A stretch of DNA of 64,000 bases from Diprion similis (lineage: Eukaryota; Arthropoda; Insecta; Hymenoptera; Diprionidae): NCBI RefSeq assembly GCF_021155765.1, contig NC_060106.1, positions 10,609,501 to 10,673,500 on the forward strand, given 5' to 3'. The notes beneath the pieces were generated by a model, which was not told the DNA's origin, did not search any database, and saw only the letters and a program-made list of their open reading frames with translations. The translations under genes were made by a program, and so were the position numbers. Shown here in pieces: positions 10,501 to 59,395 of the stretch (the stretch's first letter is position 1; each line of letters begins with the position of its first letter).

Positions 10501-11956
10501 GCACAGTTAGCTGCTTCCGGTCAACTTGGGATCCTCGACAATGACGCATTGTCTCAAATGCCGCAGCCAAACTTCGCTGAAGGTAATTTTCTTGCTATCT
10601 GATTAGTGAAAGTCCATTACTTGCCGTTCTCTGAACTTTTCCACGTGGTCGTCATCAGGTGAACAGTTTGCTGCTTCCACCGTTTCGAGATCCAGCAGGT
10701 CCAGCACCGATCCTGTGACTTTCACTTCTGGATTGGCGACTCTTGGCGGAAGTACATCTGTAGCTCCAGAACCCAAGTTGAGGATGACACCTGTGTCGGT
10801 TGGTACCAATGCAGTGGCTTCTAGACTTCGAAGCGTTGGAACAGCTGTTGATGCTCCGGAAGTTGCGTATTTAAGTTACCACGACGGAGGGGAAGACATT
10901 CAGGGTCTGGATCAAATCGAAGCAGCAGCATCTCGGAAAGTTGTACCAAAAAATGGGACTGCTGAAAAGAATATAAGTAGAGATACTAGTTCCACGAAGG
11001 TGGACACCCACTCGTCTGCAGCGTCGACTCAGTCACATTTGAACGATCCGAAAAATAACAGCAATAGTAACGCTGATACGGACGTGAGTAATGTCGTATT
11101 GCCTGCCACGTCATCTCCGGCTTCATTCACCCCCAAGCCCTGCACTCCAGAGCCAGGAAACGTAACGTTGAAAGCAAATGAGACGAAGGCAGTTGCTAGC
11201 CAGATACTCAATGAAATCATAGATGAACTGGAAGAACTGAAGTTAGAAAATCCAAAAGATGAGCGAAAGGAAGGTTTGTTAACGTCATTTCAGTCTTTGG
11301 GAAAATCACTGGAATGATTTTATTTCAATTACACTTCGTCAGGTTTACCCTGCAGACTGACAGGGTCCTGGGTGACGACGAGAGCCGGCGTTCGAATCGA
11401 CATGGAAGTGACGAATCACAGCGTGAGAGCCTCTCTTGACCACCTTACGCCACCACCGATCTCTGAAGGTCTTTTGAACGTAACTTGGAACGTGACCGGT
11501 TTTGCACCCTTCCAACGGGGAGGCCCTTTCACTTTGTTAGCAACAGATAATCACACCAAAACGCTCGCTGTCTTTGTCGGTAAGTCTTCGACCCTGTACT
11601 GCGATGGCTGATTGAATTAATATCATTATTGTTATTTGTTCGCGTATACAGGGGCATGCAAAGTTTGCCAAGGTATCGACACTATAGAAGGATCGTGGAC
11701 AGTGTCGCGGGAGCCAAGGGATTGCCGAGACTTTCAAATGTCGAGCAGTATTTTCAACGAGATGTTCAGACGAACGCGTCTTTTCTCGGCGATCAAAGAG
11801 AAACAAGTGCAACACGACGCAGCATCTTTGAACACGACTGCTACCCCGGGCAATAATTCCTCGCTATCACAAAGTACAAGTCCTAGACACGAGGGGCTGG
11901 CCGATTTCAGCAAACTCCACAATCAAACTACCCCGTCAGTTAATGGCTCGAAATGA
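7568..11956 (+). CDS. Secreted basic protein with C-terminal avidin-like domain
   Basis: Six coding exons: 7568-7578, 8893-9451, 9586-10582, 10659-11273, 11343-11579 and 11652-11956, giving about 907 aa. The first exon is inferred: the frame in exon 2 has no ATG, and ATG at 7568 with a GTACAG donor restores a good signal peptide, MQVRFYLIVLLFVSLIDVEA. Residues about 65-230 are extremely basic (Arg, Lys and His clusters such as KRKRRHR and RRRRRGHR, many dibasic sites). Residues 230-725 are Ser/Thr/Asp-rich and look disordered. Residues about 729-850 resemble avidin: CRLTGSW at the first strand, FVGACKVC at the second conserved cysteine, GSWTVS, and SSIFNEMFRR near the end. The two cysteines match the positions of the avidin disulfide. 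Several N-glycosylation sites (NVTWNVT, DNHT) fit secretion. Most biotin-contact residues seem replaced, so biotin binding is doubtful. The avidin link is my inference from pattern. Confidence 0.72.
7579..8892 (+). other. Inferred first intron of the avidin-like gene
   Basis: The donor used is GTACAG at 7579. A stronger-looking GTAAGG five bases earlier would break the frame. The acceptor is the strong tract TTTTTTTTATCATCCAG ending at 8892. Overlapping open frames on both strands here reflect higher GC content and show no domain. An AG-flanked segment near 8396-8426 with a GTGAGA donor could be an alternative untranslated exon. Confidence 0.4.
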
Positions 11957-31246: not shown

Positions 31247-34200
31247 TTAGCTCTGCTTTTGTAGTTGTTCCCAAAATTTGATGTTATTCTTCAACTTTCC
31301 CGGTTCAATGATTCTAACGTCGTCACCAGAGCTATCAATTTCGGAAGAAACTACTTCCCGGTGGGTTTGAACAATAATTGATTGTTCGCTGGTCGTATAA
31401 CTTACTGGTGGAGACGTTATCTTGTTAGGAATTTGTCTCAACCCTTCTCTGAACTCTCGAGAAAGTGACCTTGCGGTCAAACTATGCATCTGTCTTGGCG
31501 TCTCTATTATCTGAACTTCAGGAGTCGTGGGTCTTTCTTTTTTTGTAGCGCCATGCGTCTTCAGTACCTGCAATAAATTTAACACTTGCTAAAAATTGAA
31601 AGAAATCCTTCCCTTACGTATATTACGTAGATTTTCTTACCCTTGGTGCAGGAGCTGGTATTTCTTCCGGTGAACTGACGAAAGCTTGAGCAAGTCTTCG
31701 GACAGACGGCATTGGCAAATCGTCCTCGTTAATATTGCCGACGACGGAAGTATTCTCATCGGAAGTATTTTCGAATATTTCCTTCTTTGCCAAAACCTCC
31801 GTGGATTTTGCTTTTACAATTATGCCATCGAGTTCATCGTCCGAAGATAAATCTATCGAGCCTGTCCTTCCACTTGTAAGAATCGTAGTCTCCGATTTCC
31901 ACAAGCCATGGCTTGCCGAAGACGCCTTGATCATTTGTCGCCTCAATCGTTCTTCTTCCTTTAACCTTTCCTTCTTCGTACCAAAATGACTGATAATCAC
32001 ATCCTCTTCATTGTTGTACCTATGTCTCGTCGTCAAATTCTGTGAAAAATGTTCGATTTTCCTTACATTCGGCATAGACTTGGCCGAAATCATTCCGCCG
32101 AATTCATCAAACGCGTCCGACAAATTTTTCTCTTCACTGAAAATTTCGCTACTCTTTGACACGTCAAAGTCACCCGAAGCCTCGTACTCTACCAGATTCT
32201 GCGAACTCTTGGACCTCTCTCGTTGCCCGTGATGTTCGGTTAAATTTGATTTTGTTTTCATTTTTACAATTCTCGGTTTCACGTGGACCTCGTTATTGAG
32301 TTTTTCGTCAATGTGACCGATAGATTGGTTTCTGTACAAATCAGACTCGTAACCGTATGATTTCAAGTCCAATTTGTTCACTACTCGTTTCTCGGTCAAT
32401 TTAGTTGTAGAACTGCTGCTAGTTTTTATTGCATTTTCAAATCCGTACGCCTTGAGGTCAATGCGATTAATGGATTTCTGATGATCACTTCCGAATGATC
32501 TTCTCACTTGTGAAACAGCCACTTTCTCCAAGTCTTCCTTGTTATTCAATTTTGCATTTAGTTCATTCTTACTGTTCCTTCGGACATTCTCCAAAAGCTC
32601 CTCGTTACTTTGTTCTTTCAAAGAGTTATCCACTTCCGAAATTGACCTCTTTATCGTTACGTCATTGGTCTCTACCTTGTTTGGAGCAATCCCCAAATGA
32701 ATTGTTGTTTCAACTCTCTGTCTGCCCTGTGATACCACGTTAGAATTATTCGAATCAATGTTATTCTGCTGCCAAGTCGTCACTTTCGTTTTAACTTCCG
32801 TTACCGAGTTTGAGGTCTGCTCTGTTTCCTGGTGCTGGATTTTATCCTAAAACAAATCAAATCCCGCTTTAAAACAAAGGCTATCATTACATCGGGTCAT
32901 TTCGCTATTCACCAATACGTCGACAACATTAATAAGCGGGAGCATCAAGTGCCTCCAGACTGTAGCTACATATTTTATTATATTATAGAATATATTAACC
33001 AAGGCCAAAGCACTATAGCATTAATTCTGTAGTACCTAATAACTTGCAGCATTAATAAATTTTGAATCACGGTATGGCAGTTAGTACAAGATTCCCATTA
33101 TATGTGTGTGTACAGTGTAAGCAGAAATTCTGTGATTATTGACAGTTAATATTGAATAGGATTAGAAAGTAGTTGCGAGTAAAATATGCACGAGTCACAC
33201 GTGTACATTAGGAGATTTGTTAGATCGTCACCACCGGATGTGTTAGATAGAAAAAGTTTCACCGGGTTAGCGAAGACGGAAATAACGTAAAGAAACTCAT
33301 GGTGAACTTACTTACCATTTAGGTACATTGTACAAGGGGATCTCATGCATGTGCAGTGCTTACGTAGGGAAAAAATTAATGAAATTTAAAAACGAAAAAC
33401 CGTAAAACATATTTATTTTTTGATCAATTAAGAAGTGTATAACTATACATATAGCGTATGTATACGTATATACGTATGCGTCTATTGCATTGTATATACA
33501 AGTTGGTAGAGTCAGCATTCCAATTGAATGCAATGTGTGGCTGTGATGTGTGTGTGCTGTGTGCGTGTGTATAATAAGCTGTAAGAAGTGTTTAGATGAA
33601 AGGCAACTCAGATTATAACGGCAAAAAAAAAGATTTCTGGTTTACATGCACTGCGAGCGAGTAAAAATCAAATATGAAAAATGCTCGAGGCTGGATTCGA
33701 TAGCGTGTATTAAAACGCGTTTCCTTTATTTTTTAAGTTCCTGTTCTTACGGACGATAAAACTGCTATTTCAAATTTCGTTTATGACTGCTGTGCTCGGT
33801 AATTTCCGCTTGATACCTCCGAGACCCAATTAACCTAATGTTCGCTACCAATCTATCGCCTAATCAGACTTCGACTACCTCTTCCTACCTGAATATATTA
33901 TACTATGTGTATATTAGTATTTCTATTCTCACTAATGAGCACCTGAAATCTTGTGCTTTCAATATATCACCACATAGATACGTCCTCGGCAATCTTTCTA
34001 TGCACGCTGCTACTTCTAAGAATACTGTTACTATCGTCCTTAAGACTTCGACTCCTCCGTAAACCGGCCAACGTTTCAAAGCTTCTTTCTATCACTTCTG
34101 GGGACTCGGGTGGTTCTAATCTAAGACTGCTGTCATCGCGAATTGCACGAGGTTTGATCGGACGGCTGGATACTCCTCGATAACGGGGCGATTTTTGAGC

Positions 34201-37200
34201 TGATGCAGTATCCAGAGAATAAATTGATTCATTGTCGGTCGACAATCGTGACTTTGGCCGCATCAGGGCGTCTCTCAAAAAGCTCGCCATCAAGTTTTCA
34301 TCGCCGATGTTCCGTTCGGCTGACGCTCTTTTCGAGCCAACGTGATGCGATGGTTTCTTCTTCTTGACACGTTCGCCGTTCGAGTTCACTTTTGCATCTC
34401 TGAACTTTGTGTAGCTTGGATCTCTTCGAGTCTCAAAATTGCTGTAGAGAATATCCTCTCCGTTCTCGGACATGGTTTCCCGTCGCTGCTTCGCCTCTTT
34501 GGCGTCTCTGAACGAGAGACTTGGCCTCAATTTAACTTTATGGTACTTTATTATATTTTTACCATCGAAATTTGTTCTCTGCTTGATTCCGCCGAAAGTT
34601 TGACACTTCATACTGCCAAAGTCCGAAACGTTATCCGGGTATTCGGCCATACCCTCGTTTTCCGAATCCGTGTCGTCAAACTCGTCCTGCAGGTCGTTCC
34701 AGTTAAAGCGTCTTCTCTTTATTCCACCAAATGTATTGAACTTGAAGCTTCCAAAGTTCGAATATCTCTTACCGTTGGACGTCACGATTTCGTCACCCCT
34801 TTTCGACTCGTCAACTGACAATCTTTTCGGCGGTTCTTCATCCTCCTCTTTCCTAATCCCACTCTTATCCGTTTCCGTTACTTCGTTCGATTCGATGGAA
34901 TACATTCCGGAATCTTGATCCACAAAATTAGAACGTTGTGGATTACGATTCGGTAGTAGGAAATTATTTTCTAAATCATACAACGGATTAACAGCAAAGT
35001 TTTCAACAGCATCTCCGGTTTTGAAAAGTCTTTCAAAGTTCTCTGGATCGAGATCTACCAATCTTCCTCTGTCGTCCAATACTCTAAGCTCGCGATTTCT
35101 TCCCTCAGACATTAAATCGGAAATGCTCGCTAATTTCTCAGAGGACATCTCAGAGAAATCCATTTGATTGTTCTGTTCCTTCGGTACCTCTCCACAAGAA
35201 CTTGCTTTGCATTCTGAATTCTCGTCACCGATGACCCTTGGCTGCGGATCTCTCGTCTTCGATAAAGTTTGAATCAATTTTGATTCTCCATATCTGGACG
35301 CCGCGTTCCTTACCGTGACATTTGAGTCTTCATTCGACGAGCACTCGGTATCGTGGTGAGCATTACTGGGCCCAACAATTCGGTGTTGCACCGTGTCAAT
35401 CGGTGCATCGTTTCCTCGATAACTCGACGACGCGCTATTTCGTACTCTGTCTGTTACGGAATCGGACACGCAAGGGTCGCTTAGCTCGTCAACTCGACTA
35501 ACTTTCAAATCCTCGCCAACTTGCAAGTGGAGCAGAGGGTTGGTTACAAAATGGGGACTCGAATTCTGCCCTCGAAAGCTCCGTCTATGAAGGCTGCCCC
35601 GCAGGGATGCCTCCTCGAATCTGTCAAGTCCATAACTCACCTGCTGTTCAATATCGCCTTCGAACGAGCCGGAATTCTGGGATAACGAGCTGTTCGGTCT
35701 TCCGGCATTCAACATAGCCGATCTTCTAGCGCGCTCCCCACTTGCTTTCTTTGCCTCGTTGATATAGTAGTCTCTCCCATACCTGCACATTTCAAACAAC
35801 AAAATCTCATTACCCCGTTAATTTCTTTCCTCCATATTTTCAACATATTTTGCAAAAGGTTCTTCAATCTTCAATGTAAATTACTCAGCTGATCCACCGT
35901 GAATTATTAATAATTCGAACATAACTACTCAATTAAGCATTTAATGATTCTTGCGCTACCTCTTGACGTCCGGTTGACCAGCGCCCAGGACCACTTGAAT
36001 AGAGGTTCCATCCACCTTTGGTGCTTCGGTGTTAACCCTAAAAATTCCATTTTCGTTGTTCTCAATGGTACGGAGATACGGTGAAACAAAGTAGACGAAA
36101 TGACTGAAAAGAAAATGATTACACTCACCCAGATGAAGATTCGGATGATACCTTCCGGGAGTATTGTCGTTGCCATAATCTTTTCTGAATGTTTTCCTCA
36201 CTGTAAGGATTGTTCTCTATCGGCGCGGCATTTTCCCACTTCTTATGCTCGCGCTCGGCTATCGTGCCTGCAAAAATTCGTCTCGTTAATAATCTATTCC
36301 GTCTCATTTTTATGAGCAGCGACTCGACGTGTGCCGATTAGTAAACGAGGTTTAAGCTAGCAGCCAGAATTAAGAGTCAAACGTTTCTAATGAGTTAGTG
36401 AAGTCCGAAAATTAAAATTTTGTGAAACACCTTGAACCCCCAAAACTCTTACAGACTTATCAGGATGAAACTAAACTGCATTTTTCTGTTTCCAAAAAGT
36501 TTAACATATTCGACTCTTAACTCCCGACTGCTAGCTTGAGCTCCATGATTAGTAAATCGAAGAATCTAAACTGATTAAGTTACAACCGAGTGAGTACCTG
36601 GACGAGGTGGGGTGGCGAGAAACAGGTCAACTTCGACCTTCTTCCGTTCGGCTGGTTCGGGCTGATCAACCTCAAGGTTGGCTAACGCCGCAGCCTCGCG
36701 GCACTGCCTGCAGAGCAAAATCTTGAATTAAAGCAATGACACGATGCGAGGAAATGAAGGTTGAAAGCACAATTGAAATTCATAACAGTATAAAGATACT
36801 GAAAGAAAACGAAAACACGAAAACAATGTTGAACCACATGACGTGTGTTCAGTAGCTGAACTACAGCCGCAGCCGCTTTATCGAGTATCTTTTATTCCGA
36901 TTGAAACAAACGAGAGAACATCTCGATTCAAATTCATGACGGTGAATCATCCGAGTACACAGTGTGCCGAATAGAACAGTTTCCTGACGTGAATCAAACT
37001 CATTAGAATCATACCTGAGTCTAGCAATCGGTGGAGGAGTCGAGGGTATTGGCGGTGGGATATCGTCATGCTCGTGAATACCGAGTATTTTGCCACCTTT
37101 GCCAGGTCTCTTTAAACTGTCCAGGTGTCTCTGGGTCGCTGTAGCGTAATGCTCGGTGTACTCGCTTTCCTGCTGAGCACCATCCTCGTCTGGGGATTAC

Positions 37201-40200
37201 AAAGGCGTGCAATGAGAAACGATGAGTGATCGTTGACTCGGAAAGAAAATGAAAAAAGATGTGATAAACTCACGTTGCAGGTCGATTCTGTGCTCCTCGG
37301 TTATCACAGTGTGATGATTCTCGTTGCCGCTTTCTACGAAAGCGAAACGCGCTTCAACCACTCCGTTTGCAACTTCCGTAAGATTGAGGTCTTGGTTCTT
37401 TTCGAAGTCCGGAACGTAGCTTCTCAGTTTTTCTTCCAGCGAACTAAGATTCGTGCCAACTTTCGTCTCGATGGATACCAGTTTTTCATCCAGCGAACGG
37501 AAATCGGTACGAGTTTGGATTTCTGTGGCTCCGACTTCCTGTTTAAGAGGAGATGATGCTGGAGTTCTGGGGCACCCTTTTGAGCACAAATCATCCTTCT
37601 GGTTGACAAGCTGGTCTTGAGGCAGTTTATCCAACTCGTTAAGTCGCGGTGTGACGGATGGACGCTTCGCTTGTTGATCCTTTGGTTGGTCGAGCTGGCA
37701 GACCGATTCAGGTACCTCAGGACCTGTCACATCAAGATTAGACTTCTCTGTAAAAGAAGTCGACGAGCTGTTCACCACGACCGTTTGGACCCCGCTTCGA
37801 CTCGTGATTTCGACCGAAGCTCTCGACTTCACTCTAGAAGCTGGTTCTGGAATTTTTACATCACTTCCACCTATCTTTTCATCCAACGTTATGATATTTC
37901 CCGACGATTTTTCCGCCTGTATAAACTCGCTCGACGGATCCTGATGCGTAGTTTTCTGCTCAGATTGCGACGTCTTTTTGTCCCTCAAATGAAACACGAG
38001 CATATCTTCAATGCCAAGTTTGATCTCCGTCGTCCCCGACGATGGACTCGCGGGTTTCTGTTCGTTATGTCCGTTCGTCATTCCGTTGGCACTAGGTTCG
38101 TTGATTTGGAAGTGAGTGGCGGTGTTCATCGTTAAATTATCGTGAACAATCGTTCGGGCGTCATCTGCAGTTCGCGTGTTAATTTCCCCTCTTCCCTTAG
38201 CTTCCAGCAAACCAGAAGCTTCGGTCTCTTCCGTATTACCTGGAGGTTTTGGAATCACGTTGTTGATAGCTTCGAGAAGTTCGTCCTCAATTTCTTCGTC
38301 GGAATGAGCGGAACAGTCGGACAGATCGGAGGTGTCATCGGCTTCTCTATCGCCAATTAAAGGCTTTAAATCTTCGCTAGGATTTGGGACCAGCATTGAA
38401 ACTGGTTCGGATTGAGCCTGCATCTTCTTCTTTTGAAACAGCCAATTCTCCTCCCATGACTCGACAGGCGTGACTAGATCCACGTGCGTCGGTGTCGACA
38501 CCTCGTCCTGCAATTCCTCGGAAGACTCTTGCGAAACTGCGAATTAAAAATCGACGAGGACGTGTTCAAAGCCGCACATGACGAGCATCGTGATCGTTTA
38601 TTCTATTCTGCACAGTCCGAACCTAGAAGTTCGGTAGAAATCTAGTAGAAAGCCATTCTGTAATGGCAAATTGAACTTTCACGTGCCTCGTAAAATTGCG
38701 AATTCAAAAAAGGCACTCTAAACGCAACTCGTCACCTGGCTCCAAAAAAAAAAAACAAGAAAAAATTCTTCAAGAAACTTTCGTCGATTAACTTACGATC
38801 GATTATGTCCATTCCAAATTCAGGGAAAGGCACACGATGCGCCTTGTTGAAGTTCAGACCATTTGCCGCGGCTTCATCTCGTTCTTCCTCGTCCGAAGTG
38901 TAGGTCGTTGTCACTTCTTCGATGTGCTCTTCTATCTGCAACGTAACGTGTAACGTCGAAAAGAGAGTCAGTAAACTCTTATGAAATAACGAGTGGAATG
39001 ACTCCTGAATAATTAGCTTAACCTTTCTCCGCGTCGCACCAGCACTGCCGTAAGGTTTGCTCTCAGTTCCAAGCGTTGTTTATTTACTGATTGTATAATT
39101 CTTTTTCCTACAAAACCTTCATCAGGAAATAAGAAAGACGACCATCGTCATAGAAAACCTTTTGCTAAAATTTTTCCATGCAGCAAAATTTATAGCAGTA
39201 TTTCTCGCATTTCTCACTCGCAATCATCTTGCAAACTAGAACCTAGCCAATCCTGAGACTAGGAGAAATTAAACATTGCAATTCAGCAAGCCGGCAACCT
39301 AGTAAAAGAGTCTATTCCTAATTGCGCGGTGCATATCCAAAGCTCTTACGGTTCAGCAATCCCGCCACATTATGCTCAAAATAAAAAATTAGTGCATCGA
39401 CAGGTATTATCACATAATCATTAACGATGGCGCCGACTAAAGAGATTGTATCAATCGTCTTGCAGAGTGGAGATACTTTGTCCAACGAACAAGTTATCAT
39501 TTACTGCGATTCTGCAAAGGTTCGCAAAACTTACCGTCAACGATAGTGGTTCCTGACGATTGATGGAATATTTCGAGGGTGGTGCGCTACAATCGCTGCC
39601 ATACTCATCCTGCGAGAGTGGTTCGAGGCTGCTGCTGCCTTCCTCGACGCCTTCGTCGAGTCCCACCTCGATTTCGCCTGTTTAATGATTCAATTGAATT
39701 ATTCGCCCGGGAAGTGCCATTCGTATGTTAAACAGGCCTCGAAAACAATCTGAATTCTTCGCTCGAAAACTTTTTTCTCTTGTCGATTGTAGACGTACGC
39801 GAATTGCCAGTATAATAGATCATTCGATAATTTGACGCGCTAAGATGAGCTACGAATCTTTAACTTCTCTGATCTTTAATACAATTTTATCGGAAACGCA
39901 TATGCACTTGCTGGTGATGTATTTTTGATTTATGATGTATTTTGATTTTTGTACTTACTCGTGATGTATTTTTGATTCTGAGAGGTTTTCTTGGCGCCTA
40001 ATGTGTTGCTGTTATTGTCGACGCGTTCGGTTTGGTACTTCTCGATTACCTAGAATATACATCCAAACTTTAGTCGTCTGCAAGTATAATCGTCAAGTTT
40101 AAAATCGAGCTTTGTACCATTACGTTAGGGACAGCAATTTTGTCTTCTCAATTCGTTGATAGCTTACTTACTGGAAATTATACAAACATATTCAAAGCAT

Positions 40201-42744
40201 TGTATAACAAAAAACCAGAGAGTGCGATGTGTGAATATGTTAAAAAAGTTTGACGTCTTTTTAGGTGGTTACCGGTAATTTCTTGTGCGTCAATTAAACG
40301 TTTGGTAACGAATGACGAAATTAGCTATACGTATAATCGGCGATGAACTAAAGAACCTTTTTTTCACACAAGAATACGATAATTTTCATGCATATATCGA
40401 GGCTGAAGCAACTTCCTTGCTCGATTATTTTTATACAACCGTCTGAAGGATAAATCAACCATTGAATCGGCACGTGCATGAATTTAAATAACCGCAGTAA
40501 TTTCACAATATTTCGAATTTTATTTATTATAATTTGCTTTAAGGATACGCGAGCTTTATTTGAAAAAAAAAAGTTTTCCACTTCACTGAAAAGGGATATA
40601 ATAACGTATGAAATATCGCAAAAGTACACATTTCACGAAATTGTATCAATCTACTGTAGCTCGAGTCAACTTCTTCGGTCATATAATATATTACCTATAT
40701 GGGTAAGGCCCAATCTGATTAGGTAACTGTGATTATACTTCGACAAAAGTATTCCAACGTATAAACTGTAGGCACATACATCGCGGCTCTTGGTAAAAAG
40801 TTATAAAAGTGAAAAAAGATAAATAAAACCATGCAGATCCGAAGCCCCGATGACATTAGCGATAAAAATTGTTGCACCGTCATCGTCTCGCATAATTTGA
40901 CACGTCTTAGTTGTTTACCTTGTTGAGTATAGCAGTCGCGAGTAGATCCTCGTAGGTCTGGTCGGCTACATCTCCGGGCTCGGTGGACCGTCCAGCATCC
41001 GGATTTCCGAGTCCAGGCAGCTTCCTCGCTTCCTCCACAGCACGTTCGACCAAATCACGAAGCGCGGCGTGCGCCATTGTCGGAGTATCGGCTGCCGGCT
41101 TATCTAGGAATGGTAATTAGATATGAGAATCGATACGTGAGAAAAGACTGTAGTTTTAGTTGCCGAAGGCTCTACTGCTTCGAAAATCGACGAGGGGATT
41201 GAAAGTTTCGACTGCATGTCATCGCTTATTCGGACGTAAATTCGAATGTCCGAGCATCGACTCGTCCACTCGACGATGCTCGTTCTCGTAACTCTCTCGA
41301 GGCTGGCTCAGAACGACCTTGAGATTTTCTCCTCCAGGTGGAAATCCGTGTGGATTACTAACCCGATTAACCAATGGCGACAGGTCACCAGGTGCTCAGC
41401 ACCATAGACGCTATTATGCGTACCTTTTCGAATTAGGGAAATGTGTGTGGATTGAAGCCGATCTTGCACGGTAGTATGTGAAAAAATGTAATATTATTCA
41501 GATTAAAATAAGGCCAGTCCAGTTACTGTCAAATCGTATAACCACGCGATTATTTAAGAAAATGTCGACAAGGAACTTGAATGAGTATCTTTGTATTGTG
41601 CTATTTAAGGAGTCACATAGTGTGAGAGGCCTCTCAGACTCGAGCTAGAAATCCTATAAAATATAAGAAAAAGCCTTGAAATCAGGCAAAAACTGGCGTT
41701 TAGACCATGTTCCGTGATAAAAAAATTCCCATAATCCGAAGGAATCTAGTCTAGACGTACAATGGAATAATCTCTCCGAAGATCGTGTTATGGTGTTGAC
41801 TTTCTAGCCCTGATCCCTCCAGACCGGAGGTGAAGGTCGCCGTCTGCGTCACCGCGTCCCTCTAGCTGCGTGGCCTTAATAAGGTCGTTTGGTAAGATTG
41901 CGGTCAGAGTAAGTATGAGCACGAAACAGGAAATCGATTATTACCATCTTCTCTACGACTCGACTCAGGTTTTCCTCGACACTGTTTCCGCCTCTCAGAT
42001 TCCATCTATCTTTGAAACCTCGAGATTCCGAGGCCGTTTCTCGCGTCATTCAGCTTCCCAGTTTCATCTTAATACCATCCTACGTCTTTGACATTTTCTC
42101 GGGAATTTACTCTGAGTATAAAAATCAGACGCTGGTATAAAATTCGCAGCTTCTGATCGGTACGATCTACGTGAATTTATAGGATCCGATCGCGGCTGTC
42201 TCGGTTAATTTTTAACGTTGCGTAAAATCGGCGAATACAGGCGGTATAAAAAACTGATAACCCCTATTTTTGCAGCAGACTTTCCAATACCGCAATCCCT
42301 TCGAGTGTGGATCTCTCATCAATCTTTCTTAACAGTTGGTAAAATCGTAGGATAGACACATGTAATTAAAGATTTTTCAAGAGTGAGGTCAATCGGGTTG
42401 CCGCACTATAATCCGTCGAGACTCGAGTTAATGATTCGCAAAATGCGATTTAGCTGGTATGCGAAATTTGAATTCACAGGAAAAAGAATGTGATTATAAA
42501 GCGGAATATTTTTGAAGAATAAAAAAATTACATCCAGTAATTGATGGCAAGGATTCGCTATTTTTTACACTTTAAGTATATATGATATTACGATTCACAA
42601 GGTGTAATTAGTGCAGGTACTTTGGACAGGTGATGACTAGATAATAATCTTACCATCTTTCTTCTTGAGGAACAAGTAGATGAAGTAGGCAATGACGATG
42701 CCACCGATCAGCGTCAACATTTGTTCTAGGAATTCCGGTATCAT
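31247..42744 (-). CDS. Same locus, short isoform with N-terminal transmembrane anchor
   Basis: A first coding exon at 42744-42654 starts with ATG immediately after an in-frame TAA and encodes MIPEFLEQMLTLIGGIVIAY followed by FIYLFLKKKD. It ends in phase 1 at GTAAGA and joins the exon at 41103-40919 exactly as the long-isoform exon at 50065 does. The protein would be 1,913 aa. The short acidic lumenal or external tip, one hydrophobic segment (residues about 9-26) and a following KKK predict a type III signal anchor with the large C-terminal part in the cytosol. It lacks the Rab-binding finger. The same 12 downstream exons follow. Alternative promoter use is inferred from phase and the in-frame stop; no transcript is available. 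The membrane could be the ER, vesicles or plasma membrane. Confidence 0.7.
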
Positions 42745-45700
42745 TTATAAACAAATATTTCATGTTACGCCTTCGCGCACCTGTTTGAAAAAAGAAAACT
42801 TTCGTTTCGAACAGCAGATTCCAACTGCGGCGAGGAAAATGTGAATCCCTCAGGATCTACAACACTTCCATCGATCCGAAGAATGCGGTGAAAAATCGAT
42901 TTGGGTGATGAAAAAAATGAAGAAAAATAACGTCACGTACGCGAGGCCGGAAATTACTGTCGATACATTTTTTTATTATACAACGCGGCGAGACTTACGA
43001 GATTAATGTGAGACGGAAAGTCATTGTTGCCCTATTCTTAACGGCGTACTTATCTCTTTCATAAACGCGCAAAAGATAACGAATGACAAAGTAATGACGC
43101 AATCTACGCCCCGCCGTACGCGTATCGACTCCTTATCTCTTTCTCAATTTCCAGTAACAGTTCATGTTTTCGTAGCCAATCGGGCCACTCTTTTTTCGCC
43201 CTGATAATGAACACTTTTTCGCTCCAATGAGTAATTAATATTGCACCGTATTCCAAAACTCGAAATACCTGCCAGTTCGCTTCGTTGACCGAGTTACAGT
43301 GAATTTCAATTACGTAAAGGGATCGATATATTTAACTGATAAGCTTTGATGAGACACGGATAAAAATTAAACTGTGTTGAGACTTGAATCAAAGGAGGGA
43401 AATCAAACACGTATTTTACCACTTTTCAAATATACTGTAGAACAAATATGGAATGAACTAAAATTCTCGTCAAAGGCTGAAAACCAACTTTCGTTTACCT
43501 ATATATATGTATATATATATATGCATATTAAGCCCTCGGGCAAGGATGTGTAATTATAGTTTCGGCGATGAGAAACGTTGTAAAATCGATTCCAGTTGAA
43601 AAATGAAACTTGGCGATTGGCACTTCGCCGGTATACATATATGTATATGTATATATTCCTCTATTTGTATTATCTACTTCGCTCGATTTCTTGATTGCGT
43701 GAAAGGTTTCGGATAAATATTTAATTTCGCGTATATTTAATCGCCTCGCTAATCAAACGCTCAATTTGATTCATTAATATATCGAGATATTCTATTATAT
43801 CCGATACATAACACGTGTGATCTGCGACGATCGCGATTTTTCAACGCAAATTTATCACTGATTGTGAGTAAAAAGCTTCCGTCAATGATGAGTTGAGATA
43901 CGAAACGCCTTCCTATGTACTCGTATGCTTGACGTACCGACGGTGAACGTATTTGTGCCATCGTTTTGTGTGCTCAATGATAACCTGGTAAATTCTGTCT
44001 CGTTTCACTAGATTTGTTTTCGAAAGATACTCGAGAGTTCAATCTCCAAGTTTCACCGTTTAGTACTCTTCAGTTTACACGTACACAGTCTCGATTGACT
44101 GCATCCTTGAAACGATTGAAAAATGAAAATATACTAGGAACAATAAGAAATTTAAAAAAATTAACGATCACAAAACAAATCGTTCAATATAAATAATCAA
44201 GTTGTTTCTTCACTGTTATTCCATTCATTTACGTAATAGTAAAAATATGGAAAAAGAACTTATGAATTCAAGATGACGTAGGTATTATTGTTTTTCTTTT
44301 TTTTCGGTTTGTTTTCGTCCTTTTCCAACAACCATATGAAGAGCGAGTCACGCTCACGGGCACTTTTTGATCTGTGCTCCAACAGATTATATTATAACGA
44401 TGTTTTTCCGTATCGTATACCCTCAGGCGTTTGGAAAATATTTCTGAAGTATACTAGTAAGCTCACTGATGTCGGAAAATCTTCTCGAATGTTCTGTCAA
44501 GTGAGAACTTACACGATAAAAAACCGACCTGCAGCCATTGTTTCAGCGTTAATAATATACTAAAATATCAGCTCTGTTTGCAAAAAAAAAAAAAAAAAAT
44601 GTCGATGAGTCGTGATATTTGAAATTTTATAAAAAACCAATATTTTTCGAAAACACCATTCGAACAATCGTTAAAAAATTCCAACGTCAGCGGTGCGATT
44701 ACCTAAACTTTTAAACACAAAGGCCACCCTAACAGTCACATTGCACGCACTTGTACATTAAGGAGGGGGGCGTGGAAAATCAATCGATCACTTAATCTCA
44801 ATCACTCTGTTGTACAGCTTCGTCGTGAGTTTTTTTTTCCTGTCACAAACGCGGTTCACCGTTCACGTGGGAAAAGTCGTAATTCGACAGAGTCAAGCAG
44901 AAGAAAAGGGATGAAACAAGCGCGCACGCAATCGTCGGAAAGCGATGCAAATGTTTGAACAGTTGTTTGAAGTCAAAACGCGGGAGATGAAAGCGCGATG
45001 CTGACTGAAAAGAAACAGGCCGCGCAGTCGGTTATGGAGTTGGAGATGTGGGAAAACGCGATATGAGAAAGGTGAAATTTTTCGTCGTACGTCGAAATTA
45101 TACGTAGATTTTTGTAACGCCTCTCGCACTGTCACTCATGGAGTATCTGAGACGCGCCAACGGCCGACGTCGCGACGCCCGACTTACTAATTGTGGCCTC
45201 TTGATACGCGACGTCGCTTCTACTGTAGTGGCGAACGTACGGCTTCTTTCGGTGGGGATCATTTCGCACAGAGCGACATAGTACGTTTTTCATCAAGCTC
45301 GTTCGCCGTTGCGCGATTATGGAATATCAGGTTCGACGTTACGACTGCACGTGCTCAGGATGAAGAAACTGAGATGAAAGTTAGTCGAGAATCACTGACG
45401 CTCAGATTTCGTAAAGTATAATTGTTAACGTGATCCGATTTGATTGGAACGAAACTCTGGGATCTTTAAAAGTCAACACTGTGGCTTGTTTTCACATCGA
45501 AAAAGAGCTTTTTCGACTATCCTACGATAATTTTCGAATTTTGCAATGCCTTAGTAGTATTTTTATGGCGCCGTATCTCAACAGGTAAAAATGTAATCTT
45601 TAAAGGATGACTTCGTTGTCTGTTGTCTGTTTGTCTGTTTGTCCAATAGTCAATTTGTTGTTATATCACATAACAATAATAATTGAGTTTGTACGGAACC

Positions 45701-48700: not shown

Positions 48701-51700
48701 TTTCGCGAATGATAGTAATAAAATCATTACGAGTCGCACGCGATTAAATAAACTTGAAACACGCCTCTGACGTCCGAAGCTCAAAATTAGCGAAATTATT
48801 TAATTTACTACCGATACTACGGCATGCAAGCGTTTTCAGGAGCTTTGAATGAATTAACCAGACAATATAGATAAGCAAAATAGACTCGCGCGCGTGTTGA
48901 GAAGAAGAAAAAAAAATATTCATTGACTCAACGAAACAATTATTATTGCACTATATGTTACATTATTTTTAAGGAGTGAGTTTCGAATCGAGCCGGGGTA
49001 AAAAGCGCGTCTATTTTCGCCGTGGTTTTATAAATTAAATAGCTACTTTGACTTTGACATGGTTGTTCGATGATTGCGGCTCGTACCTATAAGAAATAAA
49101 ACGCACGTCCTTACAGAACGGCGAGTAATAGGAGGAGATAATTACCATTTCTGTGTCACATTACGTAATCATCATGAACGCGTTGCAGACTTGCAAACTT
49201 TTTGTCTATCTTTTTCACTCTTTCTCTCTCTCTCTCTATCTCTCTATCTTTCATATTTTATCCTCCGCAGTGTTTAACGCGTTACGTCCGAGAGACGACG
49301 GTTGAACAGGCACCTGATCGCTTGATTCTTGAGTACATAAATAAATTGCATGTGGATACGTACCTCCACGCATGCTAACCCGCGGTTATTATACTCACGC
49401 CTATTGTGGCAAGACTAGGGTACAAGGTTATCCCTCACGACGTAATATTCCCTCGACGCGGATTGCTGCAGTGCATCTAATTGCAATTTCCACCAACTTG
49501 AAAAATTGTTATCGCTTTTTTACACTCGGAATAACGAATGCTCGAAAAAATAAATATTTTTTGTTTTACACAAGTGTACCGACAACTCAGCCTTAATTCA
49601 GAATCATAATTCAGAGGGATCATAATAAATTTCCTCAACGATACAGAAATTCGTCAGAATAATAAACCTGACAGCGGATTCAGATACGTGTAATTAGAAT
49701 TTTCTTATTTGTATGCGTCCCGACGCTATTTTTCTGGACATGCAAATCTCAACGCACGCAAAATGTTATTCAATTTTCGAAAAGCTTTAAGCTGGGTACA
49801 CACTTGAGCATATTTGCGCGCAAATAATGTATTATAAATAATAATATGTTCAAGTGTGTACCCAGCTTTATAAGAATCAGCCTCTGCAACGTTTGAGGAA
49901 TTGGAATCTGACCTAAAGCCTAATTAGTATTAATTTTCGCATGACATCGGACATTCGAATTGAATTTCAAGAGTTATTGCCCATTTTTTGAAATTTACTT
50001 AAAAAAAAATAACGTAATAACAAAGCAGCAGACACGTATAAATGCAACAGTAGATACTTACTACCGATAGAGAGTTGAAGCGCTATCGCCAGTCGTGCTA
50101 GGGCCCCAGCCAATGGTTGCTTGTAGTTTGCCACAAGTCGATCATCTGCGTTAATATGCGTTAGTGCGATGTTAGTACTTTGGAATAAGCGGTTCACTTG
50201 AATTTACACAATAGCGTAAGCTTTATTCAAATTTACATTTTCCTTCTCCATCCACTTTGTTTTAGTAGAATTAGTAATTAATAATACCACTAATTGTTAA
50301 CACCGTATAATCGCCATATTATTCATTTTGTGCCAAATTACTCGAATCAAATCTGTGTGCATAAATGATCTTTCTTTTTTGATAAATTTCTATCAATTTA
50401 TCACTATAGGTAGTAAAAAAGTGACAGACCGTCATACGCGATCGACTCATAGATTTCTGACTTTTTCATTAAATGTCGATAACACAGGAAGGATGAATCG
50501 ACGTTATCAAGTCTCGTAGACGCGTGTAGATCGAGATTCAAGTGAGAATTCTCTCTCGCAACTTGATCCGCGACTCGATCGACCGACGGCTTTAGGCCGA
50601 CTACGAACCCTACCTTTGCTACTTCGCACCTGACCGGCAAGCTTTTTGCGCCAACCAGCAGGTAGCGCTAGCTGCAGATGCGAATTTGAAACGAGAAACT
50701 GGTTATCAGCTCAAAGCGCGCGCCGCGCTATATCAGATTCAAAAGTCTAGTCACCTCACTTTCAAGGTGAATCACTTGCTTCGAAAAATATCGCAAAAAT
50801 CGCACGTGAAGGGAATCGAGAAGCGAATTTTCTTACGCAATTTAAAGCTTATTGAGACCGGTATTCACGGTCGCACCGATCAGATAAATTTCTGATGTGC
50901 TCACTGTTGTACAGACCTTAACGATTTTCATTTTTTCACGTGACGGAAAAGTACTCTACTGGGTATAAATTGAAAATTAGTTTTCTAGTATCGCGATACC
51001 AATTTGACTGAAATTTTGTAATCGCTATAAAAAAATTAGACTTTTCACAGAAGTTTTTAGTTTTAATCTCCGTGGAATGCAACAATGCAATAGAATGATT
51101 GAATGAAAGTAAGTCAAATCACAGTGCACACTAGTTGCTTGTAATTTTGCGATCGTTAGTTCTTTCGCCAATATCAACTCACTTTGAGAGTAGGTAGTGA
51201 CTACAATTTAGAATCCGATAATAACTGCATATTGCACGGTGATTTCTCTCGTTCAAACACAGCGTCTACTTATCGTCTCTCGGTTAAAATTTCGACAACG
51301 TTTGATGGAAAGTCAGAGCTCGGACCTTCCGTTCAAGGCTCAGTTGTATTCGGTTTAATTTTTGCAAGTCGACGAATGCGAGAAACGTTTCAATTGAAAT
51401 GACAGGAATTTTACTTCGACCCGCGACACGTTCTACCGGTTGATGTTTGCAAAAATATTGCATTTCGCGAACGACTGTTGTTGCGAAATAAACGCACAAA
51501 CAGCAAATCCAGGGTGCACTGAACCGGCGGAATGTATTTCCGGCGAATACTGACGAGACACGACGGATTGCTAAATTCTCAATTTTATATAAACAATAAT
51601 TCGGCACAGCTGCTCAACTTACAGGCGATGTGATCGTAGAGGCGGTCTATCGGTATCTCGTCGACGTCTCCGACGAGGCCTTCGACTATCTTCTCGACGA

Positions 51701-54700: not shown

Positions 54701-57700
54701 TTCGTCTCTATTTTTCTTCATCCCAATTACGCTCAGTGCCGATTTACCGCAAGAACAATAACAGCATGGCGGTAACGATATAATGGATAATAAGAGAGTC
54801 CATCGCAAGATTCACGTACACCGGGATAGAAGAAGGTGATCGTTAAATTCTTTTTTCAGTCGCGGTATCATATCCAAGAGCAATTGAAAATTCTGAAAGT
54901 TGTGCTGGTGGAAGATGCGATGCAACCACCCGTCTTATGATTGAGAAATAATGAACCGTCATCGCTACGCTTGGATTTTGATTGACGAAACGATCGGCTA
55001 ATGCATCCCAGAAAATCTCACGCCTCATGATTCTGATGTTTCGATATTATTACGAACCCAGCCGTAATAGATTTTTAAACCGTCCAAGGCGGTCAAAAAA
55101 AATTTCTCGCCAACTACCGAAGCTAGTGTCACAAATCGCTTATAACAGAGAAGGAAGAAAAATGCAAATCGGCTGGAACACCTCGCGTCTTTTTTCGGAA
55201 TTGATTATAAGTGAAAGTATCACGGGACAATAACGGTTTGGATGATTAATAAAAGTTACGTAAGATGCAAGGGGAACTTTGTAGTTGACTTTGATTCACA
55301 ATTACTTGGAAAATCGAGCGACTGGCTATTTTCTGCGCTATTCGCAAAGAGCAGAATGAACGATCATCGATTGGTTAATTTGTTACAGTTCAACGTTTCG
55401 TGCGGAAAAGCAAACTGTTGAGTTTGCTAAATGGCAAATTGGGTATCTGATTTTGTTAACAGTCGTGCCAGATAATGTGAACAGTAAAATCGCGAATAGA
55501 GGAGTGGAGAGGATAAAATGAATCTTCCGTAAGTTTCTTCGAGAGGGTCAAACAGTGGAACGACCAAATTTTAAATTCTAGTTCATAGAATGTGACAATT
55601 GGAATATAAAAAATGGATAAATCGAAACATCAAAATATCGAAAGGTAAAAATATAGAGAGCCAAGACATAAAATGATCAGAATTTCTATGTAGAACGTAC
55701 TATATATTTTCACCTAAATTTCTATATTTCTCGAGATTTGTAACGATTCTGTAGTTTAGGTTTATATTCCGACCCCTCAATTACGTTTTGACTTTTCTGT
55801 AATTAAACTGTCCACTTTTTAAAATCCTCCAAATTTCATACTTCCATTTCTAAATTCTCGACGTTGTCACCCTTCAATTGTGTACCCATTTTACTCTTTC
55901 ACCCTCGCTCTACTCCCGTCATTCTGTTTTCCAAAAATTTCTATCATCGAAGCCCCAAAGGCGGGAAGTTACGGAGAGTGTACTATAGCGCCAGATGGAG
56001 CGAACACCTCTTTTTTTATTTTATTTTATTTTTTTTTTTTTAAATTTCCCCCGGCGCCAGCAGAGTCGAATATATAATAACAAGAGTCATTTAACATTCT
56101 CTTGGTATACGAAGAGACGTATACAGTCGACGGTAGTTCGGCACGTCTGAGGAATTCCATTCGCCAATCAATTCCATGAAGCGGGCCAAATGCTGTCGGT
56201 GTTTGTCCAGGTATAAGAGTACACTGAAGTCAACAGTCAATTGTTTTGCAACAGCAAGGTTTGTATCGCGGTTTGCCGATCCGCACGCCGAGGAATGTCC
56301 CCGAGGGATTTGCTCCAGGTTCATTCTAGGAAGATAAATTATTTAGAAGGAAAGGCTTCTTCGTTTTCTCTACACACGCACACACGCCAGGCACGTACTG
56401 GAGCATTACTTTTTTAAAGCCCAATCTCCTGCCGCACCAAGGATGAGCCCTTCTGCCATTTTCGTCGTCGAACAATTACTGAACGCTTCGTAAACTGCGA
56501 GCGCTGTTAAATTTTTAACTACATATTCAAAATCAGCTCGTGAAATTCGATGATTACGATCCGGATGATCCGAAAAAAATATTCACCGCGAAACTTTTTC
56601 GTCTAATGTGCTTAATCAAGCGAACGTTTGCCAAGGATATAATTAATAATTCATGGTACAAGTGTCGAACACTCCAACTTCCGGTTGGACGCACATCCAT
56701 GCACGAAGCTGTATAATATAATTCATCGTGCTTCATTAACGGGTTATTATATTGGAATAAAAAAAAAAAAAAATCGACGATATTTCTAATTCTTCTTTTT
56801 CTTCGTCAGTTTCCGTAAGCAAATGTCAAGGACTTCCCGACGCTCGACGGAGGATTGTACAAAAAATATGCACAAAAAAACGTTTGCCTGTTCTTTACCG
56901 CAGGTATCCAGTCCCATTACTATAGATTCCGTGTGGGTACCGTGTGAATGATATTAACGTAAAAATTTTTCTCGTATATTAATAGATGAATGAGTAAATT
57001 GACAATGAAATAGGGACGAAGAAGAATAAGGAAAAGATGACAAACCTGCGAGAAAAACCTCGGATTTGGCCGTACTGAACCGGTGAGACGCGTCGTTGTG
57101 GTCGGCGGACAAACCGCCAAAGGTCTCGAACCACTTCTCGTTCCTCCTGAGCCACAACCTGCGTCGAGAGCCGAGGCAAAACGTAGAAAAACATCAATAG
57201 AGTCAATAAGCTGTGAGATTGAGTCGGACGGAGGAACGCCGAGGAATCCGATCAAAGTGGGTGGTGGACGAGGAGGGGAAGGAGGGAGCGGAAAGAGCCT
57301 CGAGGTCTCAAAAGATCCATTTACCTTGTACCTACAACGCTGTGGAGATAGGATAAAAATGCCTATTGATTTACTTGAAAATTTTGTATCCAAGATCAAA
57401 AGCACGTATCAACTGAGTTAATTTCACAGGCTGACATACGACGAATTTTTCAGTGATAGGTTTATTCTAATGGCGATTATTCTTTATTTCACGTGTCGGC
57501 CTGTGTTTTCTAGCGCGTCAAAGCAAACGCGTAGCGACAATATCGATTTGATGATCTTTGATTCTTTAATTACTTGTCGTTAAATATCTACAACTTTGAA
57601 CTAAACTTAACACATACTTAACTTTTTTCTCACATTTTATTTGATCGCAGATTTACTAGAAAAATAATAAATTAATCTTTGTCAAAAATATCGCAACTTT

Positions 57701-59395
57701 TAACACTTTCACAATTGTCAAATGAAAATGAGATATTCAGTTCAGCGTCTTTTTTTTCTACGTCTCTATCTCTCCTTTTATTACGAACCGAAGTAATCTA
57801 AGATGCTCAATGACCGGCTATAAAAATCTTCTTCTCGATGTCGTATAGCATCATCTATGCAAATTATTGTTTGTGTATATATAGGTATATACATCTATAC
57901 ACAGTGACTTTGCATACTAGTCAATAGTTCTTGAAATAATTACAATAATTCTGTTCTAGTCCCTTTTTTCTTGTCGTATTTCTTTCTCGCCTGTATTTTC
58001 ATCTCACGAATCATCCGCGCTGGCTGTTTGCCCTTGCCTGCGGGGCTTGCGATTAGATGAGGATAATCTAACGATAATCTATCTGGTCGCATTCCTGTCC
58101 ATATTATCGATTCTGACAAAGCAAGTTACTAATTATATACAGTCATGTACACGGAATTGGACTTACGAATGATAAATTTCGTGAACTAATGAACCATAAT
58201 CAACGTTTGTTTACTATTTTATAATATGCCTATCATGCGGATTGCAATTTGAATGAAAATAAGGAGATAAAATGCGGCGAGTGTCAAAAGGTCGCGATGC
58301 TGTAACAGTGCACATGTATTTTATTTTATATGTACTATATATTTGCCTCTGCGACCTCTGGCGAAGTAAGAAATCACACAAATCTGCATTCATATACATA
58401 ATGATTAAGGCTGTCGGTCAATAACCCGGACTCACATCTGACTGAAATAATCACCGTGAGATTACTAACCGGTGTTATGATCGACCAAAGCTGGTGTTTC
58501 TGATATATTCTGCCCTGATACATAAAAATGACAATTCTTTATTACAGTAACGTGTAACGCCTAACACTCTTTTCCGTAGCCATGGGTATTAATCCGAGCG
58601 ACCGGTAACACTTCACGAAAATACCGGTCCGGCTTACCTTGAAATCAAAACAGAACCGCATGCGAACTTCCTTCTTTCTTATATGTATATAAAATTGCCT
58701 GTATAATCTTCACTTATCGAATTACAGCAATCGATTGCAATTATTTAAACATCTGACAAATAATCAATTTTTAACAAACCGAGAAAGTTTCATTTTACGC
58801 CAAGAAATGTCTTCATTATTTCATAAAATCTGTAAGTAATTTCATCGAATGGATCCCCCCCCCCCCCTCCCCCTCATCCCTCCCCTGATTTTACAAAATT
58901 ATTTCACGTAAAATGATCTTCATAAATCTGTTATAATTTCGTTACCACTATTGACGGTAATAGTTCTAAAAAAATTATTAACAATTTCATAGAAGTAGTT
59001 AGGAATTTTTTTGAATCACGTAAAGTTTCCATCAAATGAATAAAAAATTAACGACGTCAAACAACGAAACTACGAGTCACGTATGCAGGCGATTCTCGAG
59101 ATACTATCTCGATTCGAAGTTGAGGCTTAAGGAAAGGATTTGGGAGTTAAAAAAATACTCAGGAGGGAGCTTGTATTACTGCAGTAACCTCCGCTGATGA
59201 CAAAACAAGCAATGCCAGGCGTTGTCCGGGGTGTCCCAGCGGGAACAACCCTTGCGGCAAACTCGGGATCCGCACTCGCCACAACCGACGCCGCGCCCTA
59301 CGACGAAGGGTTTCAGGCAACAGGCGCACCGACTATCGTCTAGAATCTGCTTGGTCTTCTCGTCCTTCGCCTCCTTCGCCTCCTTCGCTGCTCTC
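31247..59395 (-). CDS. Rab-effector-like protein, long isoform with Rab-binding zinc finger (5' end outside window)
   Basis: Exons: 59395-59189, 57158-57046, 51790-51623, 50145-50065, 41103-40919, 40049-39959, 39677-39535, 38935-38797, 38536-37274, 37189-37015, 36707-36598, 36267-36129, 36037-35960, 35782-33982, 32846-31641 and 31567-31247, about 2,070 aa in the window. The first exon starts at an acceptor, so one or more 5' exons lie upstream. Exon 1 encodes a FYVE-type finger with CxxC pairs (CACC, CGEC, CLFC). Exon 2 continues with LWLRRNEKWFETFGG and STAKSEVF, as in Slac2/MyRIP/rabphilin Rab-binding domains where a WF motif follows the finger. These effectors bind GTP-Rab27 or Rab3 on vesicles. 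The remaining about 1,900 aa are low-complexity, acidic and Ser-rich, with short conserved-looking patches (SWEENWLFQKKK, LGAGQPDVKRYGRDYY, KNNIKFWEQL). The donor at 33982 (GTATCT) is weak; reading through gives a stop at 33967. The exact family is not certain. Confidence 0.75.
32847..33981 (-). other. Intron of the Rab-effector gene (or 3' UTR of a shorter form)
   Basis: AT-rich sequence with a TG-rich run near 33534-33574 and alternating purine-pyrimidine tracts near 33440-33500. If the weak donor at 33982 is not used, the reading frame stops at 33967 and this region would begin a 3' UTR. Confidence 0.5.
36354..36537. repeat. Small inverted-repeat element (MITE-like) in a Rab-effector intron
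   Basis: The left arm AAGCTAGCAGCCAGAATTAA and the following GAGTC are mirrored at the right end by arms whose complement reads AAGCTAGCAGTCGGGAGTTA and then AGAGTC. The unit is about 184 bp with arms of about 25 bp. GATTAGTAAACGA and GATTAGTAAATCGA flank it as near-direct repeats at 36336 and 36547. No coding capacity. Confidence 0.6.
41104..42653 (-). other. Intron between the transmembrane exon and the shared exons
   Basis: No supported exon. A short plus-strand open frame at 41870-42091 has no splice signals or domain. The region is moderately AT-rich without strong repeats. Confidence 0.5.
42654..42780 (-). CDS. Alternative first coding exon encoding a transmembrane anchor
   Basis: An acceptor (TTTTTTCAAACAG) sits just upstream, so a separate 5' UTR exon is likely further upstream. 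The exon has a leading out-of-frame ATG at 42764-42762, which could act as a short upstream frame, and then the main ATG at 42744. Splicing it into the long isoform as a cassette would bring that other frame to a TGA at the junction, so it works only as an alternative start. Confidence 0.7.
42781..50064 (-). other. Large intron with the promoter region of the short isoform
   Basis: The untranslated 5' exon and promoter of the transmembrane isoform should lie in the lower part. Simple repeats include TA/TG tracts at 43500-43527 and 43630-43658, an A18 run at 44582-44599 and a CT-rich run at 49219-49247. A 78-bp foldback element lies at 49790-49867. No other coding exon was found. Confidence 0.5.
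49790..49867. mobile_element. 78-bp MITE-like palindrome with TTA target duplication
   Basis: AGCTGGGTACACACTTGA at the left is mirrored by TCAAGTGTGTACCCAGCT at the right, nearly perfect arms of about 25 bp around an AT-rich centre. TTA occurs directly on both sides (49787-49789 and 49868-49870), the 3-bp duplication typical of PIF/Harbinger elements. It codes for nothing. Confidence 0.7.
50146..51622 (-). other. Intron of the long Rab-effector isoform
   Basis: Bounded by a GTAAGT donor at 51622 and a CGCAG acceptor before 50145. Short open frames on both strands have no support. Confidence 0.6.
52034..52166. repeat. Imperfect long hairpin
   Basis: Both arms, read toward the centre, share CTGATTTCCAAT, then TTCTAGGCG, then CAGTGATTT in the same order, with small gaps. 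Arms are about 55-60 nt around a short loop. It could be a decayed MITE or a transcribed hairpin, since it is intronic. Confidence 0.6.
53470..53484. repeat. Homopolymer C15
   Basis: A run of fifteen C followed by TTCCCC in a pyrimidine-rich patch; a similar C13 run is at 58855-58867. Such tracts are rare in AT-rich introns. Confidence 0.85.
56091..56324 (-). other. Unassigned open frame, possible alternative exon
   Basis: An acceptor-like TTATCTTCCTAG stands before an ATG and 77 codons with a helical middle (NLAVAKQLTVDFSVLLYLDK). Its phase does not join the upstream exon at 57046, where the joint gives an immediate stop, and no donor is clear at its end. It could be a chance frame or a terminal exon of another transcript. 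Confidence 0.2.
57159..59188 (-). other. Intron between the two Rab-binding-domain exons
   Basis: AT-rich, with a C13 run at 58855-58867. No exon or element otherwise recognised. Confidence 0.6.
59189..59395 (-). CDS. Exon encoding the Rab-binding FYVE-type zinc finger
   Basis: A strong acceptor (TTCTTCTGTTTCCCCAG) opens the exon. It encodes a charged helix (AAKEAKEAKDEKTKQILDD), then SRCACCLKPFVV, GVGCGECGSRVCRKGC and WHCLFCHQR, eight or more cysteines in paired CxxC spacing. It ends AG before GTTACT, a weak donor, and joins in phase to WLRRNEKWFETF at 57158. The helix-finger-WF order is that of Rab27/Rab3 effectors. Confidence 0.8.

Follow-up and report, generated by a model that had tools for sequence, protein, structure and literature searches.

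Rab effectors are understood as going where the active Rab is, and those of the Slac2/MyRIP type have a FYVE_2 (SHD) domain, made up of an SHD1 helix and a zinc finger, and carry, after the finger, an SHD2 segment with a tryptophan-aromatic motif; they bind Rab27 or Rab3, and myosin or actin. For one of them, melanophilin (Slac2-a), we know of no membrane-anchored form and of no PKA helix at the place that will concern us here. MyRIP (also Slac2-c or exophilin-8, from vertebrates) is listed as an AKAP (PMC6861388) and its interaction with PKA is reported (PMC5496739). A change of N-terminus has been reported for another PKA scaffold, mouse D-AKAP1 (AKAP1), in which alternative N-termini retarget the protein between the ER and mitochondria, with the ER form said not to exist in rat or human (PMC7072574). 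Among insects, the Drosophila gene bitesize belongs to the Slp class, which is related to Slac2, and it is reported to have nine splice isoforms, all with C2 domains (PMC10153138).

The locus described here shares features with each of these systems and differs from each of them. Like MyRIP, its product would have a FYVE_2 domain and no C2 domains that we could find, and a PKA-anchoring-type helix lies in the segment after the FYVE_2 domain, as judged by alignment to a provisional human sequence. Unlike MyRIP, its scaffold is longer and matches no Pfam model above cut-off, and there is an extra N-terminus in the form of a membrane anchor, which is not described for MyRIP in the papers listed. 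Melanophilin provides the closest solved finger (2zet, E 6.5e-5). The resemblance to D-AKAP1 is one of principle, namely alternative N-termini as addresses for one PKA scaffold, whereas D-AKAP1 has no Rab-binding alternative and the KH-Tudor C-terminus is its own. Bitesize differs in having C2 domains in all its isoforms, and the passages on it describe no anchor form.

The shared scaffold

The DNA analysed is a stretch of 64,000 nucleotides (the window; C2:10609501-10673500) from a 269-Mb genome in 60 contigs, presumably that of an insect, with a Slac2/MyRIP-like gene on its minus strand. A further 39.9 kb upstream was read from the same contig, so that 103.9 kb were examined in total; coordinates above 64,000 are window-extended. 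Exons were modelled by dynamic programming that combined generic scores for splice sites with a trained codon model. The 2,819 codons used for training came from long reading frames in the window, in part from the scaffold's own long exons, so that the codon model leans towards those exons. In this model the scaffold consists of 12 exons on the minus strand, from an acceptor at 41103 to a stop at 31247:

40919..41103, minus strand: shared exon 1, phase 1 to 0, with the PKA-RII anchoring-type helix AHAALRDLVERAVEEA and an internal ATG at 41077
39959..40049, minus strand: shared exon 2 (VIEKYQ...), with 4 equal candidates in the 400 kb control strand
39535..39677, minus strand: shared exon 3, from the exon model
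38797..38935, minus strand: shared exon 4, from the exon model
37274..38536, minus strand: shared exon 5, large and acidic, from the exon model
35960..37189, minus strand: shared exons 6 to 9 (37189-37015, 36707-36598, 36267-36129 and 36037-35960)
33982..35782, minus strand: shared exon 10, large, with a weak 3' donor (0.5)
31247..32846, minus strand: shared exons 11 and 12 (32846-31641 and 31567-31247), with the stop at 31247

Shared exon 9 (36037-35960) has weak splice scores (3.2 and 2.9). The modelled exons amount to 1,884 codons when the stop is counted and encode 1,883 residues, the one at the junction among them, which agrees with the common C-terminal part of about 1,880 residues proposed in an earlier note on this DNA. 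The common acceptor proposed there is also borne out, as tcctag followed by ATAAGCCG (score 5.8, phase 1).

The scaffold, scanned in overlapping pieces, matched no Pfam model above cut-off; the sub-threshold matches were to unrelated families, and the C2 family was absent among them, as in Slac2-type proteins. Rab_eff_C, the Pfam family of the MyRIP and melanophilin C-terminus, had no match in the scaffold up to E 1 in one scan, or up to E 10 in others whose HMMER filters drop many weak matches, and we therefore call the protein MyRIP-like rather than MyRIP. A PDB search with 377 scaffold residues returned nothing up to E 10, no second transmembrane segment was found across the shared part, and shared exon 5, when used as a genome query, matched only its own place, with no retrocopy. 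Rfam at its gathering scores gave no match.

Several neighbouring reading frames were also noted. Just downstream of the scaffold gene, at 27199-28259 on the minus strand, lie two long coding-looking frames that are rich in charged residues and have no Pfam match above cut-off. A frame at 14552-15277, also on the minus strand, matches Pfam C2-C2_1 (E 4.2e-9), the first of the C2 domains in RPGR-interacting protein 1, and by that match is a neighbouring RPGRIP1-like gene, and at 8867-11314 on the plus strand there are three long reading frames with no Pfam match up to E 0.01.

A PKA-anchoring-type helix at the start of the scaffold

At residue 11 of its 1,883 residues, the scaffold opens with an amphipathic helix of the extended PKA-RII anchoring type, as found in AKAPs. 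Two forms of the PKA anchoring consensus, of 12 and 16 residues, were used. The extended 16-residue form occurs once in the scaffold and is present in 1.55% of 2,000 shuffles; the basic 12-residue form occurs 3 times against a shuffle mean of 1.29, which alone is weak evidence. Shared exons 1 and 2 were further compared with a human MYRIP fragment of provisional sequence. The local alignment scored 52, as against a shuffle mean of 38.4, and 2 of 300 shuffles of the whole protein scored as high. The global alignment scored 45, which none of 2,000 segment shuffles reached. The aligned segment is the best-scoring place in the scaffold protein, and the MYRIP stretch to which it aligns is the one after the MYRIP finger, where MyRIP has a helix of this type. 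Taken together, the helix match, the MYRIP alignment and the listing of MyRIP as an AKAP suggest that the scaffold is probably a PKA anchor, for which both N-termini would be addresses. The earlier note made no mention of this helix, which is likely the functional point of the locus.

A probable membrane-anchor exon

Upstream of the common acceptor lies an exon of a different character:

42654..42780, minus strand: membrane-anchor exon of 127 nt, with ATG 42744 (or 42720), MIPEFLEQMLTLIGGIVIAYFIYLFLKKKD and a phase-1 donor

Its acceptor at 42780 scores 11.6, and its donor at 42654, AGAAAGATG followed by gtaaga, scores 9.2 in phase 1. When entered in phase 0, the exon reads VREGVT, a stop, NICL, a second stop and then MIPEFLEQMLTLIGGIVIAYFIYLFLKKKD, followed by D-KPAADTP across the phase-1 join. 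Entry in phase 1, as from the finger side, puts TGA TAA right at the 41103 junction, and entry in phase 2 gives an early stop. Since the phase-1 reading stops at the junction and the phase-2 reading stops early, the anchor can only open a protein, and its peptide would be 22 or 30 residues long, depending on which ATG is used. The earlier note had argued that the exon has its own ATG after an in-frame stop and would bring a premature stop if used as a cassette; TGA and TAA do precede ATG 42744 in frame, and phase-1 inclusion does give the junction stops. Its description of the two N-termini as mutually exclusive stands as a statement about the reading frame and not as one about RNA.

The anchor exon joined to shared exon 1 matched only its own place in the genome, with no retrocopy. 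A wider search for relatives, made with residues 1-407 of the anchor form, yielded none from another insect in the collections scanned. Against prokaryote genome contigs it gave 59 pattern matches, one of which passed tblastn, and this one (L007, a Lachnospiraceae contig, residues 4-34) we read as a chance transmembrane match; against viral contigs it gave 7 pattern matches, none of which passed tblastn.

Translation starts and the possible use of the anchor exon

The first ATG in the anchor exon is out of frame. It lies at 42763, 19 bases before ATG 42744, has A at -3 and opens a frame of 36 codons, which runs as far as the junction. Both ATGs of the anchor are in poorer context (T at -3 for 42744, C at -3 for 42720). 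In shared exon 1, ATG 41077 has the strong context ACAATGG and stands at the start of the PKA-type helix; it could yield a third, soluble form with neither N-terminal module. Judging from these contexts, the anchored product may be a minor one, or leaky scanning may set its dose.

The same features can be read differently, with 42780-42654 used mainly as a poison or 5'-UTR exon, leading either, when included in finger transcripts, to the junction stop and decay or, in internal transcripts, to translation from 41077 and a soluble scaffold with neither module. An acceptor as strong as 11.6 is what internal exons have, phase-1 entry does stop at the junction, and the out-of-frame ATG in better context together with the strong ATG at 41077 would suit such a use. 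Nevertheless, we consider this reading unlikely: the anchor frame is rare by chance and its third positions are rich in G and C (see below), and it is hard to see why a poison exon should code for a clean signal anchor that ends in the right phase. We judge 42780-42654 most likely to be a genuine alternative exon for the N-terminus.

As such an exon, it would call for a transcription start of its own, for which the composition of the region offers one candidate:

44801..45500, minus strand: candidate promoter or 5' UTR zone of the anchor transcript, GC 0.47-0.49, CpG o/e 1.70-1.78, with a possible donor at 45188

Windows reaching the looser limits of GC 0.46 and o/e 1.6 numbered 10 of 1,035 in the 103.9 kb, 4 of them in the 44.8-45.5 kb zone, as compared with 16 of 1,920 control windows at the same limits and 9 of 1,920 that reach GC 0.47 and o/e 1.7. 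We treat the zone as a lead only for a possible anchor promoter. A search for core-promoter motifs (Inr with TATA or DPE, 60,500-42,700) gave two sites, 55674 and 45861, neither of them convincing. Inside the GC- and CpG-rich zone, 45293-45188 on the minus strand holds a frame (MKNVLCRSV...) with a phase-1 donor of 6.3, which may be either a 5' UTR exon or yet another, third first exon.

The finger side and its proposed connection to the scaffold

The other proposed N-terminus includes a zinc finger far upstream:

59180..59395, minus strand: finger exon, phase 2 in and out, with a FYVE_2-type zinc finger (DSRCACCLKPF...CGECG...CRKGC...WHCLFCHQRRLL)

The earlier note had called this a Rab-binding zinc finger, and exon 59395-59180 is indeed a match to Pfam FYVE_2 (E 4.2e-6), of Slac2 type. 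The first helix of the domain was sought with five patterns on the minus strand upstream of 59,300, and a single place matched. This exon, IEPYEYQLILEVLRRDATILDRVRVKL, lies outside the window by 8 kb (extended 72218-72134), has an acceptor of 9.7 and a donor of 6.6, and exits in phase 2, as the finger exon accepts; no exon equal to it in splice and coding scores was present in the 400 kb control strand. Helix and finger joined score 38.4 bits against FYVE_2, covering profile positions 6-114 of 118 (cut-off 27.2), as in a Slac2-type protein, versus 25.9-28.5 bits for four constructs without the helix, a gain that is partly built in because the helix was found by the domain's own patterns. PDB matches to the finger domain up to E 1 comprised 10 sequences, with melanophilin as the sole FYVE_2 protein. 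The domain is predicted to bind a Rab. As a genome query, the helix-finger domain found no retrocopy. A weak second genome match to the finger domain, at G000:C8:6693779-6693967 (E 0.59), is possibly another FYVE_2 protein.

Three exons are candidates for the path from the finger to the scaffold:

57046..57146, minus strand: tentative linking exon, phase 2 to 1 (RNEKWFETFGG...), a possible SHD2 segment
51623..51790, minus strand: upstream exon, phase 1 to 1 (ADYAGVG...SVERVRDFVEKIVEGLVGDVDEIPIDRLYDHIA), coding score 14.8, acceptor 6.7, donor 7.5
50062..50145, minus strand: probable small exon, phase 1 to 1 (DRLVANYKQPLAGALARLAIALQLSIG)

The finger exon exits in phase 2, but 51790 has to be entered in phase 1, so that an exon must link the two. 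The candidate at 57146-57046 is at chance level, with 17 equal candidates in the 400 kb control strand (0.34 per 8 kb); it adds 0.2 to 0.9 bits to the FYVE_2 score and aligns poorly with a provisional human SHD2 sequence (score 21), and another phase 2-to-1 candidate, 53526-53390, scores higher and has no motif. Exon 51790-51623 is well supported, with one equal candidate in the control strand of 400 kb, while 50145-50062 is weak (coding score 1.3; 5 equal candidates in the same strand). At the latter exon the earlier note had placed the donor at 50065, so that it and the anchor exon would both end in phase 1 with G. This is right for the anchor exon, but the donor at 50065 scores 1.4 as against 6.8 at 50062, where the exon ends in A. 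Exon 51790-51623 fits 41103 in phase, either directly or through 50145-50062, and splicing presumably joins the finger exons to the scaffold.

If they were not, the finger exons (72.2 and 59.4 kb) would form a separate upstream transcript and the scaffold would be a membrane-anchored gene of its own, starting near 45 kb. The unproven exon between the finger and 51790, without which the phases mismatch, leaves room for two such genes. We regard them as quite improbable, given that the best alignment of the scaffold's opening exons is with the segment after the finger in the provisional MyRIP sequence and that the well-scored 51790-51623 is in phase with 41103 by either route. A single gene joining finger and scaffold remains the reading that we prefer.

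Is the anchor exon beyond chance?

The rarity of the anchor exon was gauged by four criteria: a donor scoring 9 or more, a phase-1 exit, an ATG and a hydropathy of at least 2.2 over 17 residues. These were set after the exon had been seen, and the counts are accordingly rarities and not formal probabilities. On both strands of the 103.9 kb, the anchor exon is the sole match. Simulated intron sequence (third-order, 9,000,000 bases) contained one match, which lacked an acceptor scoring 8 or more. In a same-genome control of 20 stretches (200 kb, both strands, all phases), a donor of at least 9 gave one match, a poly-leucine frame in phase 0, and hence none in phase 1; relaxing the donor to at least 5 gave 7 matches, 3 of them in phase 1, all three with an acceptor of at least 8.

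Base composition and codon usage give different indications. GC in the anchor exon is 0.70 at third codon positions (0.82 from the second ATG), 0.40 at first and 0.17 at second positions, whereas none of the three relaxed phase-1 control matches has a third-position GC of at least 0.6. The trained codon score of the exon is slightly negative (-0.95). Four frames that open with an ATG, run for 10 codons or more and have a phase-1 donor scoring 6 or higher lie between 60,000 and 41,110. The anchor is one of them, and the other three have codon scores of -3.9, -4.1 and -1.4 (the last being 45293-45188) against -1.0 for the anchor, so the codon score does not mark out the anchor exon. The third-position GC pattern thus argues for coding, and the trained codon score does not. 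Such an exon is unlikely to have arisen by chance, and the reading of it as an open frame between decoy splice sites, to which the post hoc thresholds and the three relaxed phase-1 control matches lend something, is very hard to credit beside the single match in 9 Mb of simulated sequence, the empty phase-1 count in 200 kb of real sequence at a donor of at least 9 and the lower third-position GC of those three.

Proposed model and meaning

On balance, we lean towards one gene of the Slac2/MyRIP kind that would place two N-terminal modules on one PKA-type scaffold. Transcription from a far-upstream start, at or beyond extended 72.2 kb, would lead to a protein with the FYVE_2 Rab-binding domain. 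From an internal start, perhaps at 44.8-45.5 kb, 42780-42654 would become the first coding exon and supply an N-terminal signal anchor of 22 or 30 residues. Both modules would join the same scaffold at 41103, and the choice of start would decide whether a PKA anchoring scaffold goes to vesicles marked by a Rab or to a fixed membrane, perhaps the ER or the outer mitochondrial membrane. The earlier note knew of no such switch for Slac2/MyRIP proteins, and none is described in the papers listed from the open-access literature. More speculatively, and with somewhat more doubt than belief, one may see here an insect-lineage Slac2/MyRIP effector that, through an internal promoter, also exists as a form embedded in a membrane and independent of Rab, with the overlapping upstream frame setting the anchored dose.

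If the model is true, the same PKA-anchoring scaffold would be brought reversibly to Rab vesicles in one form and fixed permanently in a membrane in the other. A Rab-free, membrane-fixed form would separate the location of the scaffold from Rab activity, and the same gene would couple a second membrane to cAMP/PKA signalling. The locus would then be a simple case, open to testing, in which the choice of promoter acts as an organelle address switch.
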